Shown here in pieces: positions 6,123 through 19,033 of a stretch of DNA of 23,480 nt. A program made the translations under genes and the position numbers. This DNA is from a virus. Where the stretch lies: IMG/VR virus record IMGVR_UViG_3300008267_012114, positions 1 through 23,480 of that record; one strand, 5' to 3'. How positions within the stretch are numbered: the first letter of the stretch is position 1; each line of letters begins with the position of its first letter. The notes under the pieces were generated by a model, which saw only the letters and a list, made by a program, of their open reading frames with translations, ran no database searches and was not told the DNA's origin.

Positions 6123-6576
6123 AGAAGTGCCTAAAAAGCCTAAGAAGCTAAGCGCATCCGCGCAAGCTAAAAAAATATATTATGTAAACCCTAAAGAATT
6201 TACGGATGAGCTTAAACTTTATTACGAGAGTAATGTTATTACTGATAAGCTTGCGTTGATGATAAAAAACATAGCCTACGGGCTAGCACACGCTCCAAAT
6301 TTTATTAATTATACTTTTAAAGAAGAGGCTATAGGGGATTCTTTAATTAACATGTTTAATGCAATTAAAGAGAAGAAGTACAAATTTGATCGTGGCTTTA
6401 ATCCTTTTTCATACTTTAATTCTATAGCGTTTAATTGTTGGCGTTCTCGTATAAAAAAAGAAAAAAGAATGAGAGACACACTAGCAGCTTATCAAGAAGA
6501 AGTATATAGTATAATCGGGCCGCAAGTTGGTATTGATGACCCGATTAATCCTTTGCATAAAAATAATGACACTTAA
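6076..6576 (+). CDS. 55: Late-transcription RNA polymerase sigma factor gp55
   Basis: gp55 replaces the host sigma factor and recognises the TATAAATA late promoter box. The 166-residue protein has a Lys-rich N-terminus (MKKSKLPKKQ) and the gp55 core: YYVNPKEFTDELKLYYE, then LALMIKNIAYGLAHAPNFINYTF, and the sigma region-2-like helix FNPFSYFNSIAFNCWRSRIKKEKR, which matches the T4 pattern of an NPxxY(F/I) segment followed by RIKKE. I chose the ATG at 6076; an in-frame ATG at 6034 lies deeper in uvsW. The C-terminus (DDPINPLHKNNDT) lacks the hydrophobic clamp-binding tail known from T4 gp55. It overlaps gene 47 by 11 bp. The presence of gp55 supports the late-box calls in this window. Confidence 0.88.
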   Translation: MKKSKLPKKQLPKVYKEVPKKPKKLSASAQAKKIYYVNPKEFTDELKLYYESNVITDKLALMIKNIAYGLAHAPNFINYTFKEEAIGDSLINMFNAIKEKKYKFDRGFNPFSYFNSIAFNCWRSRIKKEKRMRDTLAAYQEEVYSIIGPQVGIDDPINPLHKNNDT

Positions 6577-7624
6577 ATTAAAAAACTCGGAAGTCGGAAT
6601 TTTTTCAGACCCTCATTACGGGGTTCACCGTAACTCGGAAGTATGGCACAAGATTGCATTAGACCACGCTAAATGGGCTAAGGAAGAATTCAAACAACGA
6701 GGAATACAAGATATAATTATACCCGGAGATATTTTTCATGATCGCAACGACATTGCTGTTAACACTCTTCATGTTGCTACTGACATATTCGATATATTAC
6801 GTGACTTCAATATCATTATTACAGTCGGTAATCACGACGCTTATTATCGTGACAACTCTAGCGTTAATTCCGTCTCCATTCTTAGAGGCTGGTCTAATAT
6901 TACTGTTGTTGACGTTCTTCAAGTTGTTGACCTCCAGGGAAAGAAAATAGCTTTTTGCCCTTGGGGGCAAAATATAGAAGAGGTACCAAAATGTGATTTA
7001 ATAGTTGGACATTTTGAAATTAATAGTTTTAAAATGAATACATTTAAGACCTGTACAAACGGTCTTAAATCGAAAGACTTTACGAGCCGAGCCCCCCTTA
7101 CTATTTCCGGACACTTTCACCATAGAGAAGAAAGAAAATATAACGAAGGGACTATACTTTACGTAGGTTGCCCGTACCAGCAAGATTGGGGAGATTTTAA
7201 CACTACTAAAGGTCTTTATATTTTAGATATAGAAACTCTTAAGTACGAGTTTGTTGAAAACAAAATCTCCCCTAGATATAATAAGATTTATTATTCTGAA
7301 ATTTCTTCAGGTAAACTTACAGCGCCGGATATAAAGCAAATTATAGCAGATAACATAGTTAAACTAGTAATAGACCAACGTATTGAGCCAAATGTAGTAG
7401 ATGCCGTTGTACGTAAGTTGGTCTCTGTAAAACCAGTAGAATTTACTATAGATTATGACTATACTGAACTTAGCAAAGTAAATGATGAGCTTGCCAATAC
7501 TAAAAATTTTAGTATTAGCGTTGAAAATTCAATTTCAGAATTTATTGATTTATTGGAGATAAAGGATAAAGATAAGGTGAAGACATACGTCACAGATCTA
7601 TATCATAGAGCACTTAAAATATGA
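6566..7624 (+). CDS. 47: Recombination nuclease subunit gp47 (Mre11/SbcD-like)
   Basis: gp47 with gp46 forms the Mre11/Rad50-type complex that resects DNA ends for recombination-dependent replication and degrades host DNA. From the ATG at 6566 (352 aa; T4 339) all phosphoesterase motifs are present: SDPHYG (D15, H17), GDIFHD (D55, D59), GNHD (88-91), VGHFE (H149) and SGHFHH (H183, H185). A Leu/Lys-rich C-terminal region (about 240-352) would contact gp46. An upstream in-frame ATG at 6527 would add residues lying inside gene 55 that do not resemble the family. In T4 only small ORFs separate genes 47 and 46; here the next gene overlaps by ATGA and begins the sugar cassette. Confidence 0.94.
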   Translation: MTLKLKNSEVGIFSDPHYGVHRNSEVWHKIALDHAKWAKEEFKQRGIQDIIIPGDIFHDRNDIAVNTLHVATDIFDILRDFNIIITVGNHDAYYRDNSSVNSVSILRGWSNITVVDVLQVVDLQGKKIAFCPWGQNIEEVPKCDLIVGHFEINSFKMNTFKTCTNGLKSKDFTSRAPLTISGHFHHREERKYNEGTILYVGCPYQQDWGDFNTTKGLYILDIETLKYEFVENKISPRYNKIYYSEISSGKLTAPDIKQIIADNIVKLVIDQRIEPNVVDAVVRKLVSVKPVEFTIDYDYTELSKVNDELANTKNFSISVENSISEFIDLLEIKDKDKVKTYVTDLYHRALKI

Positions 7625-8415
7625 AAATCGGAGCAGCCATTATCGCATGCGATAGAACAGAATATACTAATAAATGTATAGATAGTTTACTTCTTAATAA
7701 AAGAGACCTGAATGAAATTATTGTAATAAATGACGGTAAGCCTTGGTCTAATAATAAAGAAATTGAAATTATTAATAATACACCTCCCTACCGTACAGTG
7801 GGGGTGGCTAAGAATAACGCAATAAAAGAATTAATTAAAAGAGGTTGTGACCAGTTATTTTTAATTGAAAACGATATAATTATTAAAAGCCCAGAGGTAT
7901 TTAAAACATACATTGAAGCAAGACAGATTACCGGTATAACTCATTTAAATTTCGGTTATCATGGTCCTGCTAATAGAACTCAAGACTATAAATTACCTAA
8001 AGCAAGGTATATAGTGGAGTACCCAAAAAATATTAAAATAGCACTAAATATGCATTCAGTTGGTGCATTTTCTTATTTTGATAAGCGTTACATTGAAGAA
8101 GTAGGGGTGCACGACACATACTTTAAAAATGCCTGGGAGCATGTTGAACTCTGCCAGCGAGGCGTTAAAAAAGGGCTTATACCCGCGTTTTGGTGGTTTC
8201 CAGACGTAGAGGGTAGTAATGAATTGCTAGAAGAGATTCCTGGGTCTATTCAAAATAGTTCTATAACACATACTCAGGAATGGACTGATAATATGAAGAA
8301 AGGCGCTGAATATTACCAAAAACTGCACGGGTGGATACCTATTCATTCACCAGATATGCCTTTGCAGCTAGTACTAGATAACCTCAAGGTAATTTATAAA
8401 AAATATAAACTATGA
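7621..8415 (+). CDS. Glycosyltransferase family 2-like (GT-A fold)
   Basis: A 264-residue putative inverting glycosyltransferase. It opens with the GT-A nucleotide-binding strand MKIGAAIIACDR and an INDGK motif (36-40), then GVAKNNAIKE (61-70), the usual GT2 N/A-rich helix, and an FLIENDIII strand (80-88) in which END stands where the metal-binding DxD is normally found. Later elements include HSVGAFSYFDKRYIEEVG and AWEHVELCQRG, matching the acceptor-side (E/D)xxxxxR region of GT2 enzymes. No membrane segment is seen, so it is probably soluble and acts in the infected cell. Donor and acceptor cannot be predicted. It overlaps gene 47 and the next gene by ATGA. Confidence 0.78.
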   Translation: MKIGAAIIACDRTEYTNKCIDSLLLNKRDLNEIIVINDGKPWSNNKEIEIINNTPPYRTVGVAKNNAIKELIKRGCDQLFLIENDIIIKSPEVFKTYIEARQITGITHLNFGYHGPANRTQDYKLPKARYIVEYPKNIKIALNMHSVGAFSYFDKRYIEEVGVHDTYFKNAWEHVELCQRGVKKGLIPAFWWFPDVEGSNELLEEIPGSIQNSSITHTQEWTDNMKKGAEYYQKLHGWIPIHSPDMPLQLVLDNLKVIYKKYKL

Positions 8416-9218
8416 TAACTTTTTCTCGTTTAGGACGCTACGGTAACCTAGGCAATTCTATGTTTCAATTAGCAGCAACCTTAGGTATAGCTGCTAAATT
8501 AAATTATTCCGTAAAATTTCCACGGAACCCTACGTACTTTGATACTAACTATAATTGTAATAATATTTCTTTATTTGATGGTTTTGAAATAGATAACCCA
8601 GTGTTAGTAAACGAGGACTACGCAGCAATAAAAAACCATTACACTGAACCGCATTTTCATTACGACCCTAATGCTTTTAATATATCAGATAATACCGATA
8701 TTGCTGGTTACTTTCAAAGCGAAAAGTATTTTAGTCATGCAAGAGACATAGTTACAAAAGCTTTTACTTTTAAAAAAGAGTATATTGAAAAAGGTAATTC
8801 ATTATTTAGCAAATACTCTATCTCGCCACATGAAACTACTTCTTTGCACGTCAGAAGAGGAGATTATGTAGTTAAACAGGTATACCACCCTCTTCAAGAA
8901 AATGCCTACTATGAAGCAGCGTTTAAAAAAGCAAAGCTTAAAAATGTATTGGTTTTTTCAGATGATATAGAGTGGTGTAAACAAAACATAGTAGGTAATA
9001 ATATATTCTATAGTGATACTAATAACTCTTTTGCCGATATGTATGCTATGTCTTTATGTAAGAATAATATTATTGTTAATAGTACTTTTGGCTGGTGGGG
9101 AGCGTGGTTAAATAGCCATACAGACAAAGTAGTGGTTGCACCAAGTAAATGGTTTGGACCGGCTTACAGTAATGTTGTTACTACAGATATAATACCCTCT
9201 CAATGGACAATAATATGA
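8412..9218 (+). CDS. GT11 alpha-1,2-fucosyltransferase-like glycosyltransferase
   Basis: GT11 enzymes transfer L-fucose, or in some O-antigen clusters colitose, from the GDP-sugar. This 268-residue protein carries the family motifs in order: GRYGNLGNSMFQLA (8-21), IAGYFQSEKYF (97-107), the HVRRGDY signature (146-152, GDP-binding), VFSDDIEWCKQN (181-192), and NSTFGWWGAWLN (223-234). Length is typical of bacterial GT11 (about 270-300). With the GDP-fucose-synthase-like enzyme and the GT10-like protein in the same operon, GDP-fucose or GDP-colitose as donor is a strong inference. No signal peptide or membrane segment is visible. Confidence 0.9.
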   Translation: MITFSRLGRYGNLGNSMFQLAATLGIAAKLNYSVKFPRNPTYFDTNYNCNNISLFDGFEIDNPVLVNEDYAAIKNHYTEPHFHYDPNAFNISDNTDIAGYFQSEKYFSHARDIVTKAFTFKKEYIEKGNSLFSKYSISPHETTSLHVRRGDYVVKQVYHPLQENAYYEAAFKKAKLKNVLVFSDDIEWCKQNIVGNNIFYSDTNNSFADMYAMSLCKNNIIVNSTFGWWGAWLNSHTDKVVVAPSKWFGPAYSNVVTTDIIPSQWTII

Positions 9219-10024
9219 TAAAAATTTCGTTAAAAGACCGCTCTTTCAGTCATTGCATTTTTAGTAATAATCCCTTACCGCCTACGTCTTTTGCAAAATA
9301 CATAGAGTGGGACAGAGAAACTATAAACAATAATACTGTTTATACAGATCTTTGTATCAATGAGGCGCCAAACGGGGCAACAGTATGGCTAATAGAGCCT
9401 AGAGAATTAATTGCAGGTATATATGAGTTTGTAGAAAAAAACGCAGCAAAATATAAAAGCATCTGGACCCACGATAAAGACATTTTAAATAAATTTAGTA
9501 ATGCAGTGTTCGTACCCCTCGGGGGGTGCTGGATAAAAGAAGAAGATAGAAAAATCTACGAAAAAACAAAAAACTTTTCTATAATAGCTTCTTCTAAACA
9601 GCATCTACCTGGACATAGATTAAGACACGAACTTATAAAAGCAGCAGAAAATCATATAGATGTTTACGGAAACGGGTATACCTATATACCCTACAAATTA
9701 GACGGTTTGAAAGATTATAGGTACCACTTTACTATAGAAAATACTAAGAGAGATTTTTGGTTTACAGAAAAACTTATCGATTGTTTACAGACCGGTACAA
9801 TGCCTATATATTGGGGATGCCCTTCCATAAGTAAATATTTCAATTTAGAAGGCTTTATTATCTTTAATGAACTTTCTGAACTCAAAGAAAAACTTAAGCT
9901 TTGTACACCCCAATACTATGAAAGTAAGAAAGATGCTATAAAAGAAAACTTTGAACTCTCTAAAAAATTTATTTTAGCAGAAGACTGGTTATACGAAAAT
10001 GATATTTATATCACACAGAGGTAA
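9215..10024 (+). CDS. GT10-like (alpha-1,3/4-fucosyltransferase superfamily) glycosyltransferase
   Basis: The C-terminal half holds the GT10 donor-binding signature: YHFTIENTKRDFWFTEKL (170-187, with the ENxxxxx(Y/F)xTEK pattern) followed by GTMPIYWG (194-201). In GT10 the Glu-Asn and Lys residues bind GDP-fucose. The N-terminal half (1-120) is divergent but contains ATVWLIEPRELI and IWTHDKDIL, compatible with a GT-B acceptor domain. I place the start at 9215 because it gives the ATGA overlap with the previous stop (9216-9218); an ATG four codons earlier also exists. Together with the upstream GT11 gene, it suggests two successive deoxysugar additions. Confidence 0.78.
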   Translation: MIKISLKDRSFSHCIFSNNPLPPTSFAKYIEWDRETINNNTVYTDLCINEAPNGATVWLIEPRELIAGIYEFVEKNAAKYKSIWTHDKDILNKFSNAVFVPLGGCWIKEEDRKIYEKTKNFSIIASSKQHLPGHRLRHELIKAAENHIDVYGNGYTYIPYKLDGLKDYRYHFTIENTKRDFWFTEKLIDCLQTGTMPIYWGCPSISKYFNLEGFIIFNELSELKEKLKLCTPQYYESKKDAIKENFELSKKFILAEDWLYENDIYITQR

Positions 10025-10469
10025 TTTAGAAGGTAAAAGCTTACTAGAAAATCATCCCGACCGAATCAATTATTGTTTAGACCAGGGCTTTGATGTTGAA
10101 ATAGACGTTTGGTGTAACGATGGAGATTTTTTTCTCGGTCATGATTACGGTCAGTACAAAATTAAGTTTGAATTTTTATTAAACAAAAAACTTTGGGTAC
10201 ATTGCAAAAACGTTGCAGCTTTAGCAGCCTTAAAGGGGCCGTTTTATAATATTAATTGTTTTTTTATAGATAAAGATGACTGTGTACTGACTAGCAAAGG
10301 TAATATATGGCTCAGCCCTACTTATAAAAAATCTTTTAAAAATGCTATTTGCGTAATGCCTGAAGACCCTAGGTGGGAATTTCAAACGAAAGAACTTCTA
10401 GATTTTAGTGGAATTTGTACAGATAACATATACCATTACACGCGCTATGTTACTGATCTTAGACGTTGA
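9999..10469 (+). CDS. GDPD/PI-PLC-like phosphodiesterase, short form
   Basis: The N-terminus matches glycerophosphodiester phosphodiesterases: SHRGNLEG (5-12, with H6 and R7), ENHPDRI (17-23), FDVEIDVW (31-38, metal ligands E34 and D36), then FLGHD (45-49, catalytic H48). These are the GDPD active-site His, Glu, Asp and His. At 156 residues it lacks much of the usual 240-300-residue barrel, though strands LWVHCKNV and CFFIDKDD are recognisable. Short proteins of this kind can occur in polysaccharide clusters. A phosphodiester-containing sugar or glycerol phosphate is a possible substrate, but this is inference. It overlaps its neighbours by 26 and 23 bp. Confidence 0.72.
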   Translation: MIFISHRGNLEGKSLLENHPDRINYCLDQGFDVEIDVWCNDGDFFLGHDYGQYKIKFEFLLNKKLWVHCKNVAALAALKGPFYNINCFFIDKDDCVLTSKGNIWLSPTYKKSFKNAICVMPEDPRWEFQTKELLDFSGICTDNIYHYTRYVTDLRR

Positions 10470-10968
10470 CGGGGTACTCACAGACGGTAAAAAATATTAT
10501 GATAAAACCGGGAAAGCAGTACTAAAGACATTTTGCGACAGAGACTTTACCGCAATTAAAAAATTTAAAGCAGCTGGTTGGCATGTTGTTTTTTTATCTG
10601 GAGACTCGAATGTAAATGAAGCAGTCGCTAAAAACCGCAATATACCATTTTACTGTAACCGCGTTAACGGGGAAATGATAAATAAAGTAAAGTTTTTAGA
10701 TCGACTCTGCAAAGAATTTAAAACTGATATAAACAACACGGGTTATATTGGGGATGATATTTTTGATATAGATATACTTAAAGCAGTGAAGTGGCCGTTT
10801 TGCCCAGCTAACGCGGACAGCGCTGTAAAGAAAATAGCTATAAATTTAAACGCCAAAAGCGGGGAATGTTGTATTTCTGAGTTGCACGATTTTTTTAGTA
10901 GTTCAAATCTGGTTAAGCCGGTAACGCTGGAACAAATAGAAGCTTTAGATCGGAATGAACGCTTTTGA
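10447..10968 (+). CDS. KdsC-like HAD phosphatase (C0 type)
   Basis: KdsC-type enzymes dephosphorylate 3-deoxyoctulosonate 8-phosphate or related nonulosonate phosphates. The 173-residue protein begins directly at the catalytic strand MLLILDVDGVLTDG (D6 nucleophile, D8 acid/base), followed by FLSGDSN (49-55, motif II), a Lys at about 80-82, and GYIGDDIFDIDIL (99-111, motif IV with D103, D104, D107). The C-terminal segment SGECCISEL aligns with the KdsC tail GGxGAVRE. The absence of a cap domain agrees with the C0 family. An upstream ATG at 10408 would add 13 residues inside the previous gene and is less likely. No KdsA or CMP-Kdo synthetase is visible, so the substrate may be a different sugar phosphate. 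Confidence 0.82.
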   Translation: MLLILDVDGVLTDGKKYYDKTGKAVLKTFCDRDFTAIKKFKAAGWHVVFLSGDSNVNEAVAKNRNIPFYCNRVNGEMINKVKFLDRLCKEFKTDINNTGYIGDDIFDIDILKAVKWPFCPANADSAVKKIAINLNAKSGECCISELHDFFSSSNLVKPVTLEQIEALDRNERF

Positions 10969-11632
10969 TATAGCCATTTATGGTCATTTGAGTTTTGATA
11001 ACATATATCAAGGCTTTAATTATAAGACCTCTGTAGGTTGCATGGGTAATGTTTGGAATCATTTAAAATACATAAATCCAGATTTAAAGGTAAAATTAGA
11101 ACCAACCGATATAGGCGAATCTCTAGTAATAGTAGACGTAGAACATAATAAACGCACTAGTATATCCCGTTTATCTTTAAAAACTAACAAACCTACTATA
11201 CATAACGCAAACGTGAGCCATATAATGTATTTGAATGAATTATCCGATTATAGCTTTATAAAAGATATAAAAGGGTATGTAGTAGCAGATACATGTAATG
11301 GAAAGCCTTTACGGCTCAATTCAAGTGTATTAGAGAATATTGATTTATTATTAATTTCTGAAGAAGACCTGACTGTAAATGTTTTAGATATAGCTTCTTT
11401 AGTAAGAGGGCATGTTTTGGTGCATTACCCAGCTGGTAGTACCCTATATTATAAAGATATTCAACTAACCCCTTTTCAAGCAGAATTTGTATCAGGTATA
11501 AATGTATTAGGGGCGGGGGATAAACTAGCATCGTACATTCTTGCCGGTCTGGACAATTACCACAGTCTAGATAAAGTAATACAACAGGCTCATAATAGCT
11601 TGACTGATTACTTTAAAAATGAAAAAATATAA
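10955..11632 (+). CDS. Short PfkB/ribokinase-family sugar kinase
   Basis: A 225-residue protein with the landmarks of a PfkB carbohydrate kinase: an opening strand with IYGHLSFDNI (8-17), a GCMGNVWNHLKY segment (28-39, the GGxxxNvA substrate-binding motif), central ADTCNGKP (111-118, the D-x-N-x region), LLLISEEDL (131-139), and NVLGAGDKLASYILAG (183-198) with the GAGD anion hole and catalytic Asp189. Family members are usually about 300 residues; the lid region appears reduced. The neighbours (KdsC-like phosphatase, nucleotidyltransferase-isomerase fusion) suggest it phosphorylates a sugar before nucleotide activation, as HldE does for heptose, but heptose itself is only one option. Confidence 0.8.
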   Translation: MNAFDIAIYGHLSFDNIYQGFNYKTSVGCMGNVWNHLKYINPDLKVKLEPTDIGESLVIVDVEHNKRTSISRLSLKTNKPTIHNANVSHIMYLNELSDYSFIKDIKGYVVADTCNGKPLRLNSSVLENIDLLLISEEDLTVNVLDIASLVRGHVLVHYPAGSTLYYKDIQLTPFQAEFVSGINVLGAGDKLASYILAGLDNYHSLDKVIQQAHNSLTDYFKNEKI

Positions 11633-12788
11633 TCTTTTAGTTCCGCTTGCTGGAAGAGGTCAACGCTTTGTTGACGAGGGGTATGTAGTGCCCAAATACA
11701 TGATTACAGCCCGAGATAAGCATCTGATCGACTGGGCACTTAGTTCAATTGACACCCATGAGTGTAATCTTATTTTCTGTTTACGGCAGGACCACATAAA
11801 TAATTTCGGAGTAGATGAAATATTTCGCAAAAAATTTGGCGAAAATATAAAAATAGTAATAATAGATAAAATTACTGACGGTAGTGTTTCGACATGTTTA
11901 TTAGCTAAAGAATATATAGATAACGAGTTACCGCTTTATATCTATACAGTTGATGTGTATTTTCAGAAACGATTTAAGCCTCATTCAATGGAAGGCACGT
12001 CAGGGCAAGTATTAACCTTTAAAAGTAATAATCCAGCATATAGTTATGTCAAGACAGATAACCAAGGAAACGCTATACTAACAGCAGAAAAAGAAGTTAT
12101 TAGTAATAATGCATGCGTAGGGGTTTATGGATTCGCAACAGGAAAATTGTTTGTAGAGTATGCGCAAAAAATGATTGCAATGAATTTGCGCACACGTAAT
12201 GAATTTTATATTACCCCGTTATATAACTTAATGATACAGGATAACTGTAAGATTAATATACAGGAAGTAGAACGCATGTACATTATGGGTACACCTGAAG
12301 AATATAAATTCTTTACTACCCGGGTGTTAAACCCATTTGCATTAAAGCCTATTGCTTTAGTGAGCGATCACAGCGGTTATAAACTTAAAGAAGAAGCTAA
12401 GGAAGTAATAATTGCACACGGCTTAAAATATATAGACTTAGGTTGCTATACAGATAAAGATTGCGACCAATTTGATTATGTATCCCAAGCTATAACTTTT
12501 ATTAAAAATGGTACGTGCAGCCACGCAATAGGATTTTGTTGTACCGGGCAAGCAGTCAATATAGCCGCAAATAAAACTGATGGTATAAGAGCAGCACTAA
12601 TTTATGATGCGTATAGTGCTGAATACGCTATAAAGCATAATTGTTGTAACTTTTTTTCTATTCCGTCAAGAATAACCACTAGTTCTGATCTTAGCCAGTA
12701 TCTAAGTCTATGGCTATCTACGGACTTTGAGGGTGGTAGACACTGTGCGAGAATACAAAAAATAGAAAACAGCTATGGACGTCTATAA
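11619..12788 (+). CDS. Bifunctional protein: sugar nucleotidyltransferase fused to RpiB/LacAB-type isomerase
   Basis: Two domains share one continuous 389-residue frame. Residues 1-235 form a sugar-phosphate nucleotidyltransferase: LVPLAGRGQRF (7-17, nucleotide-binding G-rich loop), VPKYMI (24-29, K26), TVDVYF (110-115), and a closing EVERMYIMGTPEEYK. Residues 245-389 match ribose-5-phosphate isomerase B/LacAB: ALVSDHSGYKLKEEA (246-260), IGFCCTGQAVNIAANK (304-319, C307 at the catalytic Cys position and T309-G310 of the anion hole), GIRAALIYDAYSAEYA (322-337), KHN (339-341) and FEGGRH (370-375). RpiB proteins are normally stand-alone at about 150 residues. The fusion implies that isomerisation and nucleotide activation act on the same sugar phosphate. 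I know of no characterised protein with this architecture. Confidence 0.85.
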   Translation: MKKYNLLVPLAGRGQRFVDEGYVVPKYMITARDKHLIDWALSSIDTHECNLIFCLRQDHINNFGVDEIFRKKFGENIKIVIIDKITDGSVSTCLLAKEYIDNELPLYIYTVDVYFQKRFKPHSMEGTSGQVLTFKSNNPAYSYVKTDNQGNAILTAEKEVISNNACVGVYGFATGKLFVEYAQKMIAMNLRTRNEFYITPLYNLMIQDNCKINIQEVERMYIMGTPEEYKFFTTRVLNPFALKPIALVSDHSGYKLKEEAKEVIIAHGLKYIDLGCYTDKDCDQFDYVSQAITFIKNGTCSHAIGFCCTGQAVNIAANKTDGIRAALIYDAYSAEYAIKHNCCNFFSIPSRITTSSDLSQYLSLWLSTDFEGGRHCARIQKIENSYGRL

Positions 12789-13095
12789 TATAAAAAATTT
12801 CACCAATGGATGGTTTATAGGAGATTTTGCTCCGGCGGTTTTTAAAAACTGTTTTTTTGAAGTAGCGCATCATAAGCATAAAAAGGGCTACATTGGGCAG
12901 TTACACTTTCACAAAATAGCTACAGAAGTTACCTATATAGTTAAAGGCAAACTTATAGCAGACGGTAAGACCTTATCAGATGGTGATATGTTTGTATATA
13001 GTCCAAAAGAAATCTCTAATGTACAGTTTTTAGAAGATACCGACCTTATCGTAATTAAATGGCCCTCAGTACCTTCTGACAAATACAATGTATAA
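12775..13095 (+). CDS. Cupin-domain protein
   Basis: A 106-residue single-domain cupin. Motif 1 is readable as GQLHFHKIATEVTYIVKG (41-58: H44, H46, E51, G58), the G(x)nHxH...E...G metal-binding pattern, followed by LSDGDMFVYSPKEI (67-80), the turn into motif 2, though the second motif's His is not evident. It overlaps the fusion gene by 14 bp and the methyltransferase gene by 8 bp. Small cupins in nucleotide-sugar clusters can be epimerases or isomerases, or sense a ligand; which applies here cannot be decided. The C-terminus (WPSVPSDKYNV) matches no characterised motif I know. Confidence 0.75.
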   Translation: MDVYNIKNFTNGWFIGDFAPAVFKNCFFEVAHHKHKKGYIGQLHFHKIATEVTYIVKGKLIADGKTLSDGDMFVYSPKEISNVQFLEDTDLIVIKWPSVPSDKYNV

Positions 13096-13741
13096 TAACG
13101 ATTATAGTAGATATGTCACTTGGGTTGAAACAACTTTGAAAGGTATTAAAGCATACCCCCAACTTTCTAATGGTCTCGGTCAGTACGATTCTCCTATTCA
13201 AATTTGCGAAAAATTTATTAATATTATTAAAGATGTAACAGGTAACAGGCAATTTTCAGACGCTAACAAAAAAACCATAGTAAAATTACTTAAAAATAAC
13301 CCACAAATAAAATGTATTGTAGAAATTGGTACAGCTAGTTCTTATACAGATAGTTCTACTCAAACGTTTATACAATATAAATCCCCTGATACGCTTTTTA
13401 TTACTATAGATATTGATAATAAATCTGCAGCACTAGGAAGTAACTCTTTAAGGGAAAAAATATTAGTATTACAAAGCGACTCAGTAAATGTCGACCTTAA
13501 GAAGCATTTTACCAATGCTAGTATAGATTTACTTTTTATAGACGGGGATCACAGTGTAGATAGAGTTTTTAAGGAGTACGAATTTTATTTACCCCTTATG
13601 AGTAAAAATGGAATAATTGTGTTGCACGATACCACGTTGCACCCGGGTCCATATTTGTTTATGGAAGCAGTAGATGAAAATGTTTACAAAAAAGAAAAAC
13701 TACATCTAAACGATTACGGATTGGGTATTATTTATTTATAA
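13088..13741 (+). CDS. Class I SAM-dependent methyltransferase (Methyltransf_24/CmcI-like)
   Basis: A 217-residue protein with the Rossmann-type methyltransferase layout: CIVEIGTASSYTDSS (76-90, motif I glycine loop, although E-I-G-T lacks the full GxGxG), LFITIDIDN (103-111, motif II acidic residue D108 or D110), VLQSDSV (127-133), LLFIDGDHSVD (148-158, motif IV) and IIVLHDTTLHPGP (176-188). IDGDHS followed by hDxxxH is typical of the CmcI/Methyltransf_24 group, which often methylates sugars in polysaccharide and antibiotic clusters; metal-assisted O-methylation using D152/H155 is possible. In this operon it most likely modifies the glycan product. Confidence 0.83.
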   Translation: MYNNDYSRYVTWVETTLKGIKAYPQLSNGLGQYDSPIQICEKFINIIKDVTGNRQFSDANKKTIVKLLKNNPQIKCIVEIGTASSYTDSSTQTFIQYKSPDTLFITIDIDNKSAALGSNSLREKILVLQSDSVNVDLKKHFTNASIDLLFIDGDHSVDRVFKEYEFYLPLMSKNGIIVLHDTTLHPGPYLFMEAVDENVYKKEKLHLNDYGLGIIYL

Positions 13742-14397
13742 TGAAAAAAGCTATTTCATTTTCAGGTCAGTGTCGTTTTGTAAAAGAGGGTATTAAATCT
13801 CTTAAACGTAATTTACACGATTTTGAAAATTATGATATCTTTATACATGCCTGGGACGGTCCCTTAGCTAAAGATTGTGAAATTTATAAGCCTAAAAAAT
13901 TAAAAATTGAACCTCAGAAAAACGTAATACCTAATATTGTAAAAGAATATACCCCGGCTCATTTCGTGCATTTTAGTATGTTTTATACTATGAAAGAAAG
14001 CTTAGACCTAAAAAGCGAGTATGAAAAGGAACACGGTTTTAAGTATGATTTAGTTATAAGAACTCGTTTTGATATAAGCCTAGAAACATATATTTCCCCT
14101 GAACATTATAATTTAAGGGCTGGGGTATACTCACCAGATGTTTGTGTAAACCCAGCAGTTATATCAGATTGGTTTAATTTTTCTGATTCTAAAACAATTG
14201 ATTTATATAAAAATATCTACGGCAATATAGTTAACTACCATAAACAAGGGGTTATGATAACCTCAGGGGAAGAAATAATAACTCATATGTTAAAAACCGA
14301 AAATATTTCTATAAATAAAATATTTTGCGCCCTCTACCTCTTAAGAGATCGAGGTATACACTCTCAACTTTCTACGTACTGGAAATATGCAAACTAA
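13741..14397 (+). CDS. Putative GT-A-like polysaccharide biosynthesis protein (WavE-like)
   Basis: This 218-residue protein begins ISFSGQCRFVKEGIKSLKRNL (5-25), has YDIFIHAWDG (31-40) and then YDLVIRTRFDI (102-112). The pattern of SGQ-R, DxFxHxW and R(T/A)RFD is known from lipopolysaccharide-associated proteins such as the WavE-type family, where RxRxD may replace the DxD of a GT-A glycosyltransferase. No metal site or catalytic base can be assigned with certainty, and there is no membrane segment. Its position among glycan genes supports a transferase role. The start overlaps the preceding stop by one base (TAATG). Confidence 0.6.
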   Translation: MKKAISFSGQCRFVKEGIKSLKRNLHDFENYDIFIHAWDGPLAKDCEIYKPKKLKIEPQKNVIPNIVKEYTPAHFVHFSMFYTMKESLDLKSEYEKEHGFKYDLVIRTRFDISLETYISPEHYNLRAGVYSPDVCVNPAVISDWFNFSDSKTIDLYKNIYGNIVNYHKQGVMITSGEEIITHMLKTENISINKIFCALYLLRDRGIHSQLSTYWKYAN

Positions 14398-15319
14398 AAT
14401 TTTAGTAACTGGGGGTACTGGAATGGTTGGCCGACATTTAAAGGATCTAGGTCTGCAAGCAATATATGCAAGTAGTAAGATGTGTGATTTAACTGATTCG
14501 AGTCAAGTAAAAGATTTTTTTGAAGCTACAAGGCCTAATATAGTTGTACATTTAGCTGCTAAAGTCGGGGGTATAATGGATAATATTAAAAACCCGGTTG
14601 GTTTTTTTGAAGATAATGTCCTTATCAATACTAACGTGGTAAAATATGCTAAACAATACGGCTGCACCCGGTTTATAGGTATATTAAGTACTTGTATATA
14701 CCCTGATAAGCTTGATGATAGTCTTTACCCCCTTAAAGAGGAGACTCTACATATCGGCCCCCCAACCCAGACTAATTTTTCTTACGGATACGCAAAACGA
14801 TGTTTGGCAGTACAGCTAGAATGTTACAGAAAGCAGCATTTATCGTTTTATAGTAGTATTATACCGTGTAATTTATATTCTGAATATGATCACTTCGAAG
14901 GAGATAAATCCCATTTTGTAACAAGTTTAATTCGTAAAATTTATGAAGCAAAAACAATAAATGCTCCCTCTATACAGCTATTTGGCACAGGAACCCCGTT
15001 GAGACAATTTATGTATGCTGAAGATTTAGCTAGAGCGATTATTGATTATATATATAAAGGAATATATGCAGACTTAAATGTAGCTACAGACGAAGTATAC
15101 ACGATTAAGCAAATAGCGGAAATAGCTCTAGACGCTTGCGATGCTAAGCATTTAACTATAAATTGGGATATTAGCAAGCCTGATGGTCAGTACAGAAAAG
15201 ACGTATCTGATGCATTATTTAAAAAACATTTACCAGGCTTTAAATATACCACCTTAAAAGATGGCATAAAAAAGACTTACGATAATTATTCACATGGCCT
15301 GGCTATTAAACGAATCTAA
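14387..15319 (+). CDS. fcl: GDP-L-fucose synthase-like epimerase/reductase (Fcl/WcaG; or ColC)
   Basis: Fcl turns GDP-4-keto-6-deoxymannose into GDP-L-fucose through 3,5-epimerisation and NADPH reduction. The 310-residue SDR protein has TGGTGMVGRHL (8-18, NADP loop), HLAAKVGGIMDN (55-66), LSTCIYPD (100-107, S101 and C103), YGYAK (133-137, catalytic Tyr133 and Lys137), IIPCNLYSEYDHF (158-170) and SH (175-176, His176). Cys103 and His176 are the epimerase acid/base pair of WcaG. Length matches the family (about 310-320). The adjacent ColD-like gene means this could equally be the related GDP-colitose synthase ColC. No GDP-mannose 4,6-dehydratase lies in the window, so the substrate must come from the host or elsewhere in the genome. 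Confidence 0.87.
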   Translation: MQTKILVTGGTGMVGRHLKDLGLQAIYASSKMCDLTDSSQVKDFFEATRPNIVVHLAAKVGGIMDNIKNPVGFFEDNVLINTNVVKYAKQYGCTRFIGILSTCIYPDKLDDSLYPLKEETLHIGPPTQTNFSYGYAKRCLAVQLECYRKQHLSFYSSIIPCNLYSEYDHFEGDKSHFVTSLIRKIYEAKTINAPSIQLFGTGTPLRQFMYAEDLARAIIDYIYKGIYADLNVATDEVYTIKQIAEIALDACDAKHLTINWDISKPDGQYRKDVSDALFKKHLPGFKYTTLKDGIKKTYDNYSHGLAIKRI

Positions 15320-16436
15320 TTTTACCTGGAAAGACCGCTTAAAAATTTGTTCTTTTTTTCTTAATAAAGAAAAATTTTGGACAATGACAGATGAGGTTGC
15401 TAAGTTCGAAGAGAAGATGGCTCAGTATACTGGTACGAAGTATGCTGTATTCGTTTCAAGCGGGTCAACGGCAAATACATTACTTGCCATGTATCTTAAA
15501 GATCAGTTAAAAGATTCGGTAAAAAACACTATAGTATTTCCGTCTACTACTTGGATAACATCAGTATCTCCATTTTTACGGGAAGGTTTTATACCGCAAT
15601 TTATAGATATTACTCTAGATTCTTTAAGTCTAGATTTAGATAAACTAGAAAATTATTTAAAAGATAATAAGCATAAAGTAGCCTGTGTTTTTATTACATC
15701 TTTACTGGGTTTTAGTCCCAATATAGATAGATTAAAATATCTTAGAAAAAAATACCAGGTAAAGATAATGTTAGATAATTGTGAAAGTACATTTACAAAA
15801 TGGAACGGTCGTAATATTTCTTCATACTTTACATCTACAACGAGTACATACTTTGGTCATTTGCTTCAAAGTGTAGAAGGTGGTTTTATTTTTACAAACA
15901 GTCAATATGAATACGAGTATTTTATTATGGCTCGTAATCACGGTATGACACGAGGATTAACAAATAATAAAGAATACTACTTAAACAAACAAGTAGACTC
16001 TCGTTTCGACTTCAACATATTGGGTAATAATTTTAGAAATACTAATATAAACGCTTTTATAGGGCAGTTAGATTTTGAAAGAATTTCTGAATATACCGAT
16101 AAAAGATGCTTATTATATGATATATTTCATAGTCTTTGTCAAGAGAGCTCAACAGTTACTACTTTTCCTAGAAAATTTGAAGATGTACCGTTTTGTCTGC
16201 CGTTCGTACTCCCTACCATACAAGATAGACATAGAGTGCAAGAGTACTGCCAAAAATTAAACATCGAAACAAGACCGATAGTTTCAGGCAATCTTTTGCG
16301 TCAAACTAGCCTTAAAAAATACGGAAACCCAGAAGAATTTGAAAATAGTGATATATTGCATCATAATGGTCTGTATGTAGGTTTACATAGTAGAGTAAAA
16401 GAAACTGATATTAAAAAACTAGCCAGACAATTATGA
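15294..16436 (+). CDS. ColD-like PLP-dependent sugar 3-dehydratase (DegT/DnrJ/EryC1 fold, Lys replaced by His)
   Basis: A 380-residue DegT-family protein. The aspartate that pairs with the PLP pyridine is seen in LDNCEST (160-166). At the position where aminotransferases have the PLP-binding Lys there is His189 (TYFGHLLQSVEGG, 185-197). ColD (GDP-4-keto-6-deoxymannose 3-dehydratase) and the E1 dehydratase RfbH share this Lys-to-His change, and ColD's His is known to make it a dehydratase rather than a transaminase. Further ColD-like segments are SSGSTANTLL (55-64), ARNHGMTRGL (213-222), RPIVSGN and HHNGLYVGLH. It overlaps the Fcl-like gene by 26 bp. Together the two enzymes could make GDP-colitose. 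Confidence 0.83.
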   Translation: MAWLLNESNFTWKDRLKICSFFLNKEKFWTMTDEVAKFEEKMAQYTGTKYAVFVSSGSTANTLLAMYLKDQLKDSVKNTIVFPSTTWITSVSPFLREGFIPQFIDITLDSLSLDLDKLENYLKDNKHKVACVFITSLLGFSPNIDRLKYLRKKYQVKIMLDNCESTFTKWNGRNISSYFTSTTSTYFGHLLQSVEGGFIFTNSQYEYEYFIMARNHGMTRGLTNNKEYYLNKQVDSRFDFNILGNNFRNTNINAFIGQLDFERISEYTDKRCLLYDIFHSLCQESSTVTTFPRKFEDVPFCLPFVLPTIQDRHRVQEYCQKLNIETRPIVSGNLLRQTSLKKYGNPEEFENSDILHHNGLYVGLHSRVKETDIKKLARQL

Positions 16437-17188
16437 AACACGATTTAACTGATATTACTTTCACTATACCAGTCAGAATAGATAGCCAACAAAGATACAA
16501 TAATTTAAGTTATATTTTAGCTTATCTTAAGCATAATTTTAATACTAATATTATTGTGTACGAAAACGGCCCGGTTCAAAAAGTATCCCTAGATAGTAGT
16601 ATAAATTACACTTTTACCAAAAATAACAGCTCTTTTCATCGTACTAAGTATCTTAATGACATGGCAAAAGTAGTAAAAACTACTTTTATAGCGAACTACG
16701 ACTGCGATGTGTTTTTTCCGGTTAAACAGATATTAAAAGCTTACTCGTTATTAAAAGATAATAAAATAGATTTTATTTACCCCTATGACGGGCTGTTTGT
16801 TAATATTGGTAGAGAATTTATAGATAGAGAAGTAAAAGACTATGACCCGGTTAATTTAAACCCAGAAGGCCTTCCTAATTTTGGAAGAAGTTCTATGGGA
16901 GGCGCTTTACTTTGGAACAAAAACGCGTTTATGCAAGGGGGTATGGAAAATGAAAAATTCGTATCGTGGGGCTGCGAAGACTGGGAAAGGTACCACAGGT
17001 TTACTAAGCTTAGCTATCGGGTCGGTAGAATAAAAGGACCGCTGTATCATATTGACCACGCTCGTACTCAAGAAAGTAATGAAACTAATCCTTTTTATCA
17101 GCAAAATTTAATTGAATTTCAAAAAATTGATAAAATGAATGTGGATCAGTTAAAAGAGTATATAAAAACTTGGCCTTGGCTTTGCTAA
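16433..17188 (+). CDS. Glycosyltransferase, GT2/galactosyltransferase-C-like
   Basis: A 251-residue GT-A protein. It shows FTIPVRIDSQQRYNNL (10-25) at the N-terminus, the metal-binding DCD (90-92) within FIANYDCDVFF, and an acceptor region SMGGALLWNKNAFMQGGMENE (154-174) followed by WGCEDWERYHR (179-189). The GGAL...F...GG.NE...WG.ED...R pattern is that of the galactosyltransferase family C-terminal domain, where the ED pair holds the catalytic base. It is the last gene of the sugar cassette, overlapping the ColD-like gene by ATGA and ending 21 bp before gene 46. Donor sugar unknown; galactose or N-acetylgalactosamine would fit the family. Confidence 0.8.
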   Translation: MKHDLTDITFTIPVRIDSQQRYNNLSYILAYLKHNFNTNIIVYENGPVQKVSLDSSINYTFTKNNSSFHRTKYLNDMAKVVKTTFIANYDCDVFFPVKQILKAYSLLKDNKIDFIYPYDGLFVNIGREFIDREVKDYDPVNLNPEGLPNFGRSSMGGALLWNKNAFMQGGMENEKFVSWGCEDWERYHRFTKLSYRVGRIKGPLYHIDHARTQESNETNPFYQQNLIEFQKIDKMNVDQLKEYIKTWPWLC

Positions 17189-17209: not shown

Positions 17210-19033
17210 ATGCGGTATATTCATTTTAAGAGGCTTAAGGCGTCTAATTTTCTTTCAATAGGTAAAAAGTCCGTAGAAGTATCATTTAGACCGGGTCTCA
17301 ATATCATTACTGGCCGCAATTTCGATAAGGCAGATCGAGCCAATGGGGTAGGCAAATCAACTATAGCTGATGCAATGCATTTTGCATTGTATGGTAGTTC
17401 TATTAGAGATTTAAAGAAAGAAAATATAGTCAATGATCAAGCCCCGGATAGTTTATGTGAAGTAGAGCTGGAATTTGTTTGTGTTCAAAACGATACCCAA
17501 ACTAATTATAAGATTGTAAGAACACTTAATCCAACTAAGTGCTTTCTTTTCATGAATGACCAGGACATAACACGTTCTGGAGTACCACAGACTACTGAAC
17601 TAATAACTAGTATTATTAAGACTTCTTCTGAAGTATTTCAAAATAGCGTTGTAATGACGATTAATAATACTGTGCCGTTTATGGCGCAAAAAAAAGTAGA
17701 AAAGCGCAAATTTATTGAAGGTATTTTAGGTTTAGAAGTGTTCGGCAATATGCTTCTTTTTGTACGTCATGATTATAACGAAAACAAACGTAATCTGGAT
17801 GTTGAAACAACTAAATTTGATGAAATTAATAGGTCCCTACAAGACAATATTAAGCAGAAAGAACTTTACGATGTTAACAAGCAAAAACGCATGGATATTC
17901 TTAAGAACCGGCAAACTAATAATACAGATGAACTTGCCACCCTTAAGAAAAAACTTGATAAACTAGATCCGGTTGATGAAGATGCAAAAGAAAAGATAGA
18001 AAAAGAAATTAAGGCTTTAAACGGAGCCGAAAAAGTTTTGTCTGAAAAAATTACTGAAATTGAAAAAATAATTACAGTTGCAAGTACTCATATTAAAATC
18101 AGTACAGAGCGTCTTAAGAAATTAAAAAAAGTTGATAGTAAGTGCCCCCATTGCGGTAAAGATTTAGCTGAAGCTGCTAATCTTCAGTATGAAAAAGAAC
18201 AAAATGAGTGCGGAAAAGAAATAGAAAAATATAAAGAATCCTTAAAAATAAATGAACCTAGACTTAAGGAGCTAAATGAAAAGAATAATAAAATTGAAGA
18301 TGCTATACAAAAGATGCGCATTAAGCAGAGCGAATTTGCTTTGCGTAAAAAAGAAGTAGAAAATATTAATACTAGAATTAATCAGCTAGAAGGATGGCAG
18401 CAGCAATTAATTATAGATATAGATAATTTAAATAAAGACTCTAACGATTTTGAAAAAATTATAGGAGAAATTAATACCCGGGTTGAAGAAGTAAAAACCA
18501 TTATAAAATCATTACAGACTCAAATAGAAATTATTGAAAATGCAAAATTAATAGTTTCTGAAGAAGGGGTAAAATCTTATATAGTTAAAAAAATCATCGA
18601 AGTACTTAATACGAGACTTGCATACTATCTTAAAAAGCTTGAGAGTAACAGTATAGTTCGTTTTAATGAATATTTCGAAGAGATTATTACTAACGAACGC
18701 GGTAAAGAATGTAGTTATTTTAATTTCTCTGGCGCTGAACGTAAGGCTATAGATCTAGCTATGTTATTTACATTTCAAGATATACGACGCGCCCAAGCGG
18801 ATGTTTGTCTTAATCTATCTATGTTTGACGAGCTTTTTGATTCATCATTAGATGAAAAAGGCATCGAGCTTGTACTTGATATTCTTAGAGATAGAGTAGA
18901 TAACTATAATGAAGCTATTTATATTATCTCTCACCGTAAAGAAAGTATGAAATATTGTATCGGTGGAGAAATAGTATATCTTGAAAAGAAAAACGGCATA
19001 ACCACAAGAACTACAAACTATGATGTATCCTAA
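17210..19033 (+). CDS. 46: Recombination nuclease ATPase subunit gp46 (Rad50/SbcC-like)
   Basis: gp46 is the ABC-type ATPase partner of gp47. The 607-residue protein (T4 560) has an N-terminal ATPase half with RANGVGKST (Walker A, 43-51, K49), a Q-loop-like EVFQNSVVM (141-149), a long coiled coil (about 190-305), the zinc hook CPHC (312-315), a returning coiled coil (about 322-450), and a C-terminal half with the signature FSGAERKAIDLA (506-517), Walker B LSMFDELFD (536-544) and the switch His in IISHR (572-576). All catalytic elements are intact. It is separated from its partner gene 47 by the whole sugar cassette. The next gene's ATG overlaps its 3' end by 14 bp. Confidence 0.94.
   Translation: MRYIHFKRLKASNFLSIGKKSVEVSFRPGLNIITGRNFDKADRANGVGKSTIADAMHFALYGSSIRDLKKENIVNDQAPDSLCEVELEFVCVQNDTQTNYKIVRTLNPTKCFLFMNDQDITRSGVPQTTELITSIIKTSSEVFQNSVVMTINNTVPFMAQKKVEKRKFIEGILGLEVFGNMLLFVRHDYNENKRNLDVETTKFDEINRSLQDNIKQKELYDVNKQKRMDILKNRQTNNTDELATLKKKLDKLDPVDEDAKEKIEKEIKALNGAEKVLSEKITEIEKIITVASTHIKISTERLKKLKKVDSKCPHCGKDLAEAANLQYEKEQNECGKEIEKYKESLKINEPRLKELNEKNNKIEDAIQKMRIKQSEFALRKKEVENINTRINQLEGWQQQLIIDIDNLNKDSNDFEKIIGEINTRVEEVKTIIKSLQTQIEIIENAKLIVSEEGVKSYIVKKIIEVLNTRLAYYLKKLESNSIVRFNEYFEEIITNERGKECSYFNFSGAERKAIDLAMLFTFQDIRRAQADVCLNLSMFDELFDSSLDEKGIELVLDILRDRVDNYNEAIYIISHRKESMKYCIGGEIVYLEKKNGITTRTTNYDVS

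Follow-up and report, generated by a model that had tools for sequence, protein, structure and literature searches.

A nucleotidyltransferase–RpiB fusion in a conserved cassette of T4-like phages as a candidate bifunctional enzyme of NDP-sugar synthesis

Activated heptose is made in four steps, with an isomerase (GmhA), a 1-kinase (HldA or HddA), a phosphatase (GmhB) and a nucleotidyltransferase (HddC) acting in that order, and the bifunctional protein HldE joins two non-adjacent steps of the route. T4-like phages are known to carry genes directed at activated pentoses. In RB69, a nucleotidyltransferase gene adjoins a gene for a SIS-fold, arabinose-5-phosphate isomerase-like protein, and synthesis of UDP-arabinose for DNA arabinosylation has been proposed (PMC6024577); TH1_063 of phage Thanatos is a UDP-xylose pyrophosphorylase (PMC12838424). 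Jumbo cyanophages carry clusters of sugar and LPS genes that encode epimerases, cupins, PfkB kinases, nucleotidyltransferases and glycosyltransferases, for which a change of the surface polysaccharide has been proposed; that paper cites nucleotidyltransferases of the HIGH superfamily, and RpiB does not occur in its text (PMC7824862).

The locus described here lies in a stretch of viral DNA of 23,480 nucleotides (the window), in which a single protein combines a nucleotidyltransferase with an RpiB-type sugar-phosphate isomerase. The predicted chemistry of its cassette (isomerase, 1-kinase, phosphatase, nucleotidyltransferase) resembles that of heptose activation, but the isomerase has an RpiB rather than a SIS fold (GmhA), the phosphatase is of the KdsC type rather than GmhB, and the nucleotidyltransferase is not HddC: HddC models gave no match at E 0.01, and GmhB models matched only far below their cut-offs. 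The RB69 arabinose module (ORF053/052c and ORF055c) is similar in being a set of activated-pentose genes of a T4-like phage and in coupling a nucleotidyltransferase to a pentose-phosphate isomerase-like protein; it differs in that the isomerase has a SIS fold and the kinase-like partner resembles APH and fructosamine kinases, neither type being present in the window cassette. Homology between the two modules was rejected, as BLAST found no relation and the nucleotidyltransferases are alike at the level of the fold only.

Five genes of the window (for a GDPD-like protein, a KdsC-type phosphatase, a compact PfkB kinase, the fusion and a cupin) overlap head to tail (Table 1). The sequence-only reading had placed a PfkB-type kinase and a KdsC-type phosphatase next to the fusion, and both assignments were confirmed. 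The phosphatase matched NCBIfam NF058599 (E=5e-22) and TIGR01670 (E=5e-21), in each case below the curated cut-off; its PDB matches are 2p9j, 3e8m and KdsC chains of the 1k1e type, and its nearest relatives are KDN-9-phosphate and Kdo-8-phosphate phosphatases. The kinase keeps the GAGD motif, including the catalytic aspartate, and its AlphaFold model (pLDDT 89.9) predicts a ribokinase fold. The best 50 Foldseek PDB matches listed for it belong to the ribokinase superfamily, at E-values of about 1e-10 to 5e-12 and with no preferred substrate; no equivalog-level match was found for the kinase, and PF00294 matched the orthologue from phage Bellamy only below the Pfam cut-off. The GDPD-like protein is a ‘phosphodiesterase’ homologue by a weak BLAST match only (35% over 49 amino acids). 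The cupin has a homologue in bacterial plasmids, where it is encoded next to members of this nucleotidyltransferase family. The cassette lies within a glycan island flanked by homologues of T4-type genes 47 and 46, and the GT11- and GT10-type glycosyltransferases encoded there are possible users of activated sugars. The island, 9.5 kb in length (7621–17188), separates the two flanking homologues, whose counterparts lie close together in RB69. The window phage has a DNA polymerase that shares only about 30% identity with those of known phages, cyanophages among these.

Table 1. Positions of the fusion, its cassette and the surrounding island in the window, and of the fusion in sequenced phages
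Feature	Position	Strand	Remarks
T4-type gene 47 homologue	6527..7624		flanks island
GT11- and GT10-type glycosyltransferases	8412..10024	+	Pfam PF01531, PF00852
Short GDPD-like protein	9999..10469	+	HRG, EIDVW, GHD motifs; overlaps phosphatase start
KdsC/KDN-9-phosphatase-type HAD-IIIA phosphatase	10447..10968	+	start ATG 10447 likely
Compact PfkB/ribokinase-fold kinase, 225 aa	10955..11632	+	G28xxxN32, NVLGAGD189; overlaps fusion start by 14 bases
Fusion protein, 389 aa	11619..12788	+	one frame, ATG to stop
Fusion, N-terminal nucleotidyltransferase domain	11619..12332	+	residues 1–238; motifs, fold, 4evw match
Fusion, C-terminal RpiB/LacAB domain	12351..12770	+	residues 245–384; Pfam PF02502
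Small single-domain cupin, 106 aa	12775..13095	+	overlaps fusion stop
Rest of island: methyltransferase, DUF7796-like, GDP-fucose-synthase-like SDR, DegT aminotransferase, GT7C-type glycosyltransferase	13088..17188	+	
T4-type gene 46 homologue	17210..19033		flanks island
Fusion in sequenced phages	MF351863.1 gp206 (Bellamy); MT408532.1 gene 192 (SynMITS9220M01)		annotated ‘phosphatase’

The claim that one frame encodes both a nucleotidyltransferase and an RpiB domain held at exactly the proposed boundaries, with both domains matched, and every motif that had been named from the sequence (AGRGQRF, VPK, SDHSG, CCTG as part of FCCTG, and FEGGRH) was found in the window protein. An AlphaFold model of the fusion, built from an alignment of 17 viral homologues (mean pLDDT 81, pTM 0.73), was searched against the PDB with Foldseek. 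The two predicted halves agreed with the assignment, the N-terminal half matching best to 4evw and the C-terminal half to RpiB enzymes, and the two domains occurred together in none of the best 50 PDB matches listed.

The N-terminal half resembles 4evw, a solved NDP-sugar pyrophosphorylase from V. cholerae, and bacterial surface-polysaccharide genes annotated as ‘glycosyltransferase family 2’ over its whole sequence and predicted fold, and shares with them the GxGxRF-PK, D112, EK and NEFYxxPxYN motifs. The match to 4evw spans residues 6–233 of the fusion (E=5.8e-18), and the same structure ranks first in Foldseek for the modelled half (TM 0.80 on the target). In the model, the fold resembles sugar-1-phosphate enzymes best, and the family also has weak matches to IspD. 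With Pfam, the N-terminal half of the window protein stays below threshold, with no match to NTP_transferase (PF00483) at E 0.01, while the orthologues from Bellamy and from contig L129 exceed the cut-off of that family (24.1 and 28.8 bits vs 21.2). The motifs G12xGxR16F, P25K26, D112, E157K158 and N194-E195-F-Y-I-x-P-x-Y-N203 are invariant or nearly so across 18 homologues (G12, R16, F17, P25, K26, D112, E157, K158, E195 and N203 invariant), so that the GxGxRF...PK signature and the metal-binding Asp (D112) of sugar nucleotidyltransferases are present. The second metal-ligand Asp of RmlA/LicC-type enzymes, which precedes the GTP loop and was placed here by motif rather than by structure superposition, is replaced by Ile or Val. 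Because this residue is also missing in 4evw, its absence characterises the subfamily and does not mark the window copy as damaged, and the nucleotidyltransferase activity of the whole subfamily is a prediction.

The RpiB domain, previously called near-complete, covers the full Pfam profile (1–138/138): LacAB_rpiB (PF02502) matches residues 245–382 with E=1.5e-35 and 122.6 bits against a cut-off of 24.7. The domain also exceeds the curated cut-off of TIGR00689 (113.1 vs 88.3 bits) and falls under that of the rpiB equivalog TIGR01120 (103.3 vs 138.65 bits), and the modelled half superposes on the T. maritima protein 1o1x with a TM of 0.90 on the target. It shares with RpiB/LacAB_rpiB isomerases such as E. 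coli RpiB/AlsI and 1o1x the full domain, the predicted fold, the catalytic Cys and His and the phosphate-binding Arg and His, which in the window protein fall among D250-H251, the catalytic C307, T309, H340, R374 and R378. In E. coli RpiB numbering, Asp9, His10, Cys66, Thr/Ser68 and His99 are kept in 72/72 distinct fusions compared, and Arg133 in 71/71 that reach that far; Cys66 equates to the reactive cysteine that serves as catalytic base in RpiB (PMC3212906). Inactive residues in one of the domains had been named in advance as an observation against the assignment, and the catalytic residues of the RpiB half proved to be kept in every fusion having those positions. Two other positions near the active site set the fusions apart from stand-alone RpiB, in addition to the nucleotidyltransferase partner and the TIGR01120 score. 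At Gly67, the first glycine in the CGTG loop and neighbour of the catalytic Cys, 72/72 distinct fusions have Arg, Cys or Tyr and 14/14 stand-alone relatives have Gly; at Asp101, 72/72 distinct fusions have Cys and 14/14 stand-alone relatives have Asn or Asp. The CGTG loop is a typical rather than strict feature of the family, and LacAB_rpiB membership is kept despite the change. From the residues we infer that the RpiB half remains an intact isomerase but has an altered substrate pocket; given the family-specific changes at both positions, ribulose-5-phosphate may not be its substrate.

A scan of IMG/VR gave 70 loci, and further loci came from a second scan based on the neighbouring kinase. 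Together, these scans gave 126 full-length fusion ORFs, of which 76 are distinct, with the same junction throughout; a later, larger set, obtained with a slightly different filter, contains 87 distinct fusions. The Synechococcus phages Bellamy and SynMITS9220M01 encode full-length fusions that are 51–52% identical, and Pfam found no phosphatase domain in the Bellamy protein. PHROG 3980 spans the fusion end to end. The 76 distinct copies, their common junction and the two copies in sequenced phage genomes rule out a fusion created by artefact, frameshift or assembly error. In one contig (L067:6001-7163), a frameshift splits the fusion into frames of 186 and 202 amino acids, probably a sequencing or assembly error. 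Seven close pairs gave dN values of 0.04–0.21 for both halves, with dS above 1 in each pair that yielded a dS; both halves are held by purifying selection. These ratios and the kept catalytic residues rule out a degenerate domain.

The fusion is carried by T4-like phages of lakes and oceans. A search of 84,980 cellular species genomes with two narrow peptide patterns, shallow outside Bacteroidota, gave one match, PACT01000001.1 from a Crocinitomicaceae MAG. As this contig (L076) carries the same phage cassette and agrees in length with the IMG/VR contig IMGVR_UViG_2825980227_000005, the match is taken as viral, probably a viral contig inside the MAG bin. No other full fusion was found in 148 Bacteroidota genomes, and none of 284 plasmid records covered 80% of the fusion protein. 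The nucleotidyltransferase relatives in bacterial plasmids adjoin the same cupin, a HAD phosphatase and a phosphodiesterase-like gene in surface-polysaccharide loci but are without the RpiB fusion. In bacterial plasmids L077, L098, L099 and L102, a module recurs that draws its members from phosphodiesterase-like, HAD, nucleotidyltransferase, cupin, second nucleotidyltransferase and WavE-type genes.

The neighbourhood of the fusion was then compared among the 76 distinct copies. Wherever the contig leaves room, the PfkB kinase (75/75) and the KdsC-like phosphatase (74/74) adjoin the fusion, which bears out the proposal that the three are functionally tied; the cupin adjoins it in 61 of 74 cases with room, and 65 of the 76 have the GDPD-like gene nearby. 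Seven related cassettes contain a split transketolase (PF00456 and PF02779), encoded by two genes for proteins of about 212 and 160 amino acids. Two of the seven also have the fusion, namely L016 (transketolase pair at 7159–8275), in the order KdsC-PfkB-fusion-TktN-TktC, and L152 (transketolase pair at 6388–7498), where both types of nucleotidyltransferase occur in one run. Four others (L119, L150, L163 and L172) read KdsC-PfkB-NTase-TktN-TktC without RpiB, and in L169 the transketolase pair precedes the cassette. Contigs L118, L120 and L148 have KdsC-PfkB-NTase only, with neither RpiB nor transketolase. No replacement isomerase (SIS or RpiB) was found on the contigs with RpiB-less cassettes, which are incomplete, and no SIS protein in 12 related records.

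RpiB had been described as normally separate, which holds for RpiB itself but not for its partner, as this nucleotidyltransferase family has several fusion partners in phages. In phages B23 and S-8S53 and in many contigs the partner is a HAD phosphatase, and elsewhere it is a second nucleotidyltransferase, a copy of the first. HAD phosphatase–nucleotidyltransferase fusions are common in phage contigs (L004:7347-8720, L005:7347-8732 and others, about 89 distinct ORFs, of which Pfam confirmed four). A full RibB (3,4-dihydroxy-2-butanone-4-phosphate synthase) is fused to the same family in phage S-SKS1 (L183:3498-4925) and in L265–L271 and L274; the RibB domain of the S-SKS1 type matches PF00926 with E=5e-65, and RibB uses ribulose-5-phosphate.

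We consider it probable, though well short of certain, that the fusion has both activities and belongs to a phage-encoded route to an NDP-activated aldose, be it a pentose, a hexose or a heptose. The domains, the degree to which they and their key residues are kept, the cassette and the purifying selection on both halves are observed; each reaction and its place in the order, as well as the sugar, the nucleotide used and the destination of the product, are predictions. The RpiB half would interconvert a ketose phosphate and an aldose phosphate, drawing on the infected cell's pool of pentose phosphates, with ribulose-5-phosphate as the most natural substrate and sedoheptulose-7-phosphate the next. 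The compact PfkB kinase would phosphorylate the anomeric carbon, the KdsC-like phosphatase would strip the original terminal phosphate, and the N-terminal half of the fusion would transfer a nucleotide to the resulting sugar-1-phosphate. The product would be consumed by the glycosyltransferases of the island for a glycan of the cell surface, the virion or the DNA. Transketolase produces ketose phosphates of the pentose-phosphate pathway, which counts for this reading, and the transketolase, RibB and RpiB partners all indicate that the starting sugar comes from this pool. A pentose is favoured by the usual substrate of RpiB, the RibB fusion and the T4-like precedents, and a heptose by the bisphosphate route and the transketolase. 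Against the reading, known members of the KdsC family act on sugar acids, and the RpiB-less cassettes without an isomerase imply that this step is supplied by the host or dispensable there.

The sequence-only reading had proposed substrate channeling from the isomerised sugar phosphate to the NDP-sugar. If each neighbour has the activity typical of its family, a kinase and a phosphatase step intervene between the fused activities, which would be steps 1 and 4 of the route, and direct channeling is not expected. By analogy with HldE, the fusion more likely serves co-expression and co-localisation than a hand-over between the two sites.

The most serious alternative, a special case of the favoured route and in our estimate unlikely in this specific form, is that the product is an NDP-heptose: a transketolase of host or phage would give sedoheptulose-7-phosphate, RpiB would convert it to an aldoheptose-7-phosphate, and kinase, phosphatase and nucleotidyltransferase would follow. 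The four-step logic is the same as in heptose activation, the detour through a bisphosphate normally occurs only where no phosphomutase exists, and the split transketolase genes are found in seven related cassettes. RpiB-fold isomerases yield the 2R aldose, so that a gluco rather than a manno configuration would be expected. On the other side, the phosphate-binding residues of the RpiB half are those of enzymes acting on 5- and 6-phosphates. A manno-heptose would also be redundant, as the Bellamy island has HddA- and HddC-like genes in addition to the cassette and SynMITS9220M01 is annotated with a D,D-heptose-7-phosphate kinase, a phosphoheptose isomerase and a heptose epimerase (PMC7378029). 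These separate heptose genes in the two phages disfavour plain GDP-manno-heptose synthesis and suggest a cassette product other than GDP-D-glycero-D-manno-heptose. Cyanobacterial LPS is mostly without heptose (PMC4515613).

An improbable alternative is that the fused halves catalyse consecutive steps, the nucleotidyltransferase activating the terminal phosphate of the aldose phosphate made by RpiB, as IspD and CDP-ribitol enzymes do. Channeling would then be allowed, and the kinase and phosphatase would belong to another branch. The weak IspD matches of the family fit this order of events, as does the RibB partner in S-SKS1, which gives a product with no anomeric carbon to activate; the predicted fold, however, fits sugar-1-phosphate enzymes best, and a kinase and a phosphatase that accompany every fusion with room look like parts of the same route. 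Genes of the pentose-phosphate pathway, talC, zwf and gnd among them, occur in cyanophages (PMC7378029), so the RpiB half might instead be a metabolic helper, merely physically attached, that supplies ribose-5-phosphate for nucleotide synthesis during infection; this is very unlikely, as in the loci examined the domain always lies inside the sugar cassette and the family-specific changes at G67 and D101 argue for a changed substrate. Least likely of all is a catalytically dead RpiB half that dimerises the nucleotidyltransferase or senses sugar phosphates for it, an idea that draws on the replacement of Gly67 in all 72 distinct fusions and runs against the retention of Asp9, His10, Cys66, Thr/Ser68, His99 and Arg133 wherever the residue is present and against the low dN/dS.

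With these alternatives weighed, the route from the pentose-phosphate pool to an NDP-activated aldose remains our preferred reading of the cassette. The expectation that the fusion is not widely described with a known function was upheld within a limited search of the literature, many subscription papers lying outside its scope, in which we found no report of a nucleotidyltransferase–RpiB fusion and no function for one. The fusion thus seems to be a new domain architecture, and the cassette probably brings known enzyme families together in a new way for the synthesis of an NDP-sugar. A broader version of the route, which we put forward tentatively and with somewhat less than even confidence, is a virus-specific pathway in which a phage transketolase acts with RpiB, PfkB, the KdsC-type phosphatase and the fused nucleotidyltransferase to give an NDP-sugar that the host does not make, and in which the nucleotidyltransferase has been re-fused to RpiB, RibB or a HAD phosphatase from phage to phage, giving different activated sugars. 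For cyanophage islands in general, it has been proposed that an altered surface polysaccharide blocks other phages (PMC7824862), and glycosylation of DNA or of the virion are alternative fates of the product.

The annotations of the fusion as ‘phosphatase’ in Bellamy and SynMITS9220M01 and as ‘unknown function’ for PHROG 3980 are corrected by these results. Cyanophage sugar islands are large, and a constant cassette with a bifunctional isomerase–nucleotidyltransferase offers a defined, clonable route within them. If the cassette does make a new NDP-sugar, viruses would be shown to draw on the pentose-phosphate pool for activated sugars, the pentose-phosphate auxiliary genes of cyanophages would be linked to glycan synthesis, and a new enzyme would be at hand for the synthesis of rare NDP-sugars.
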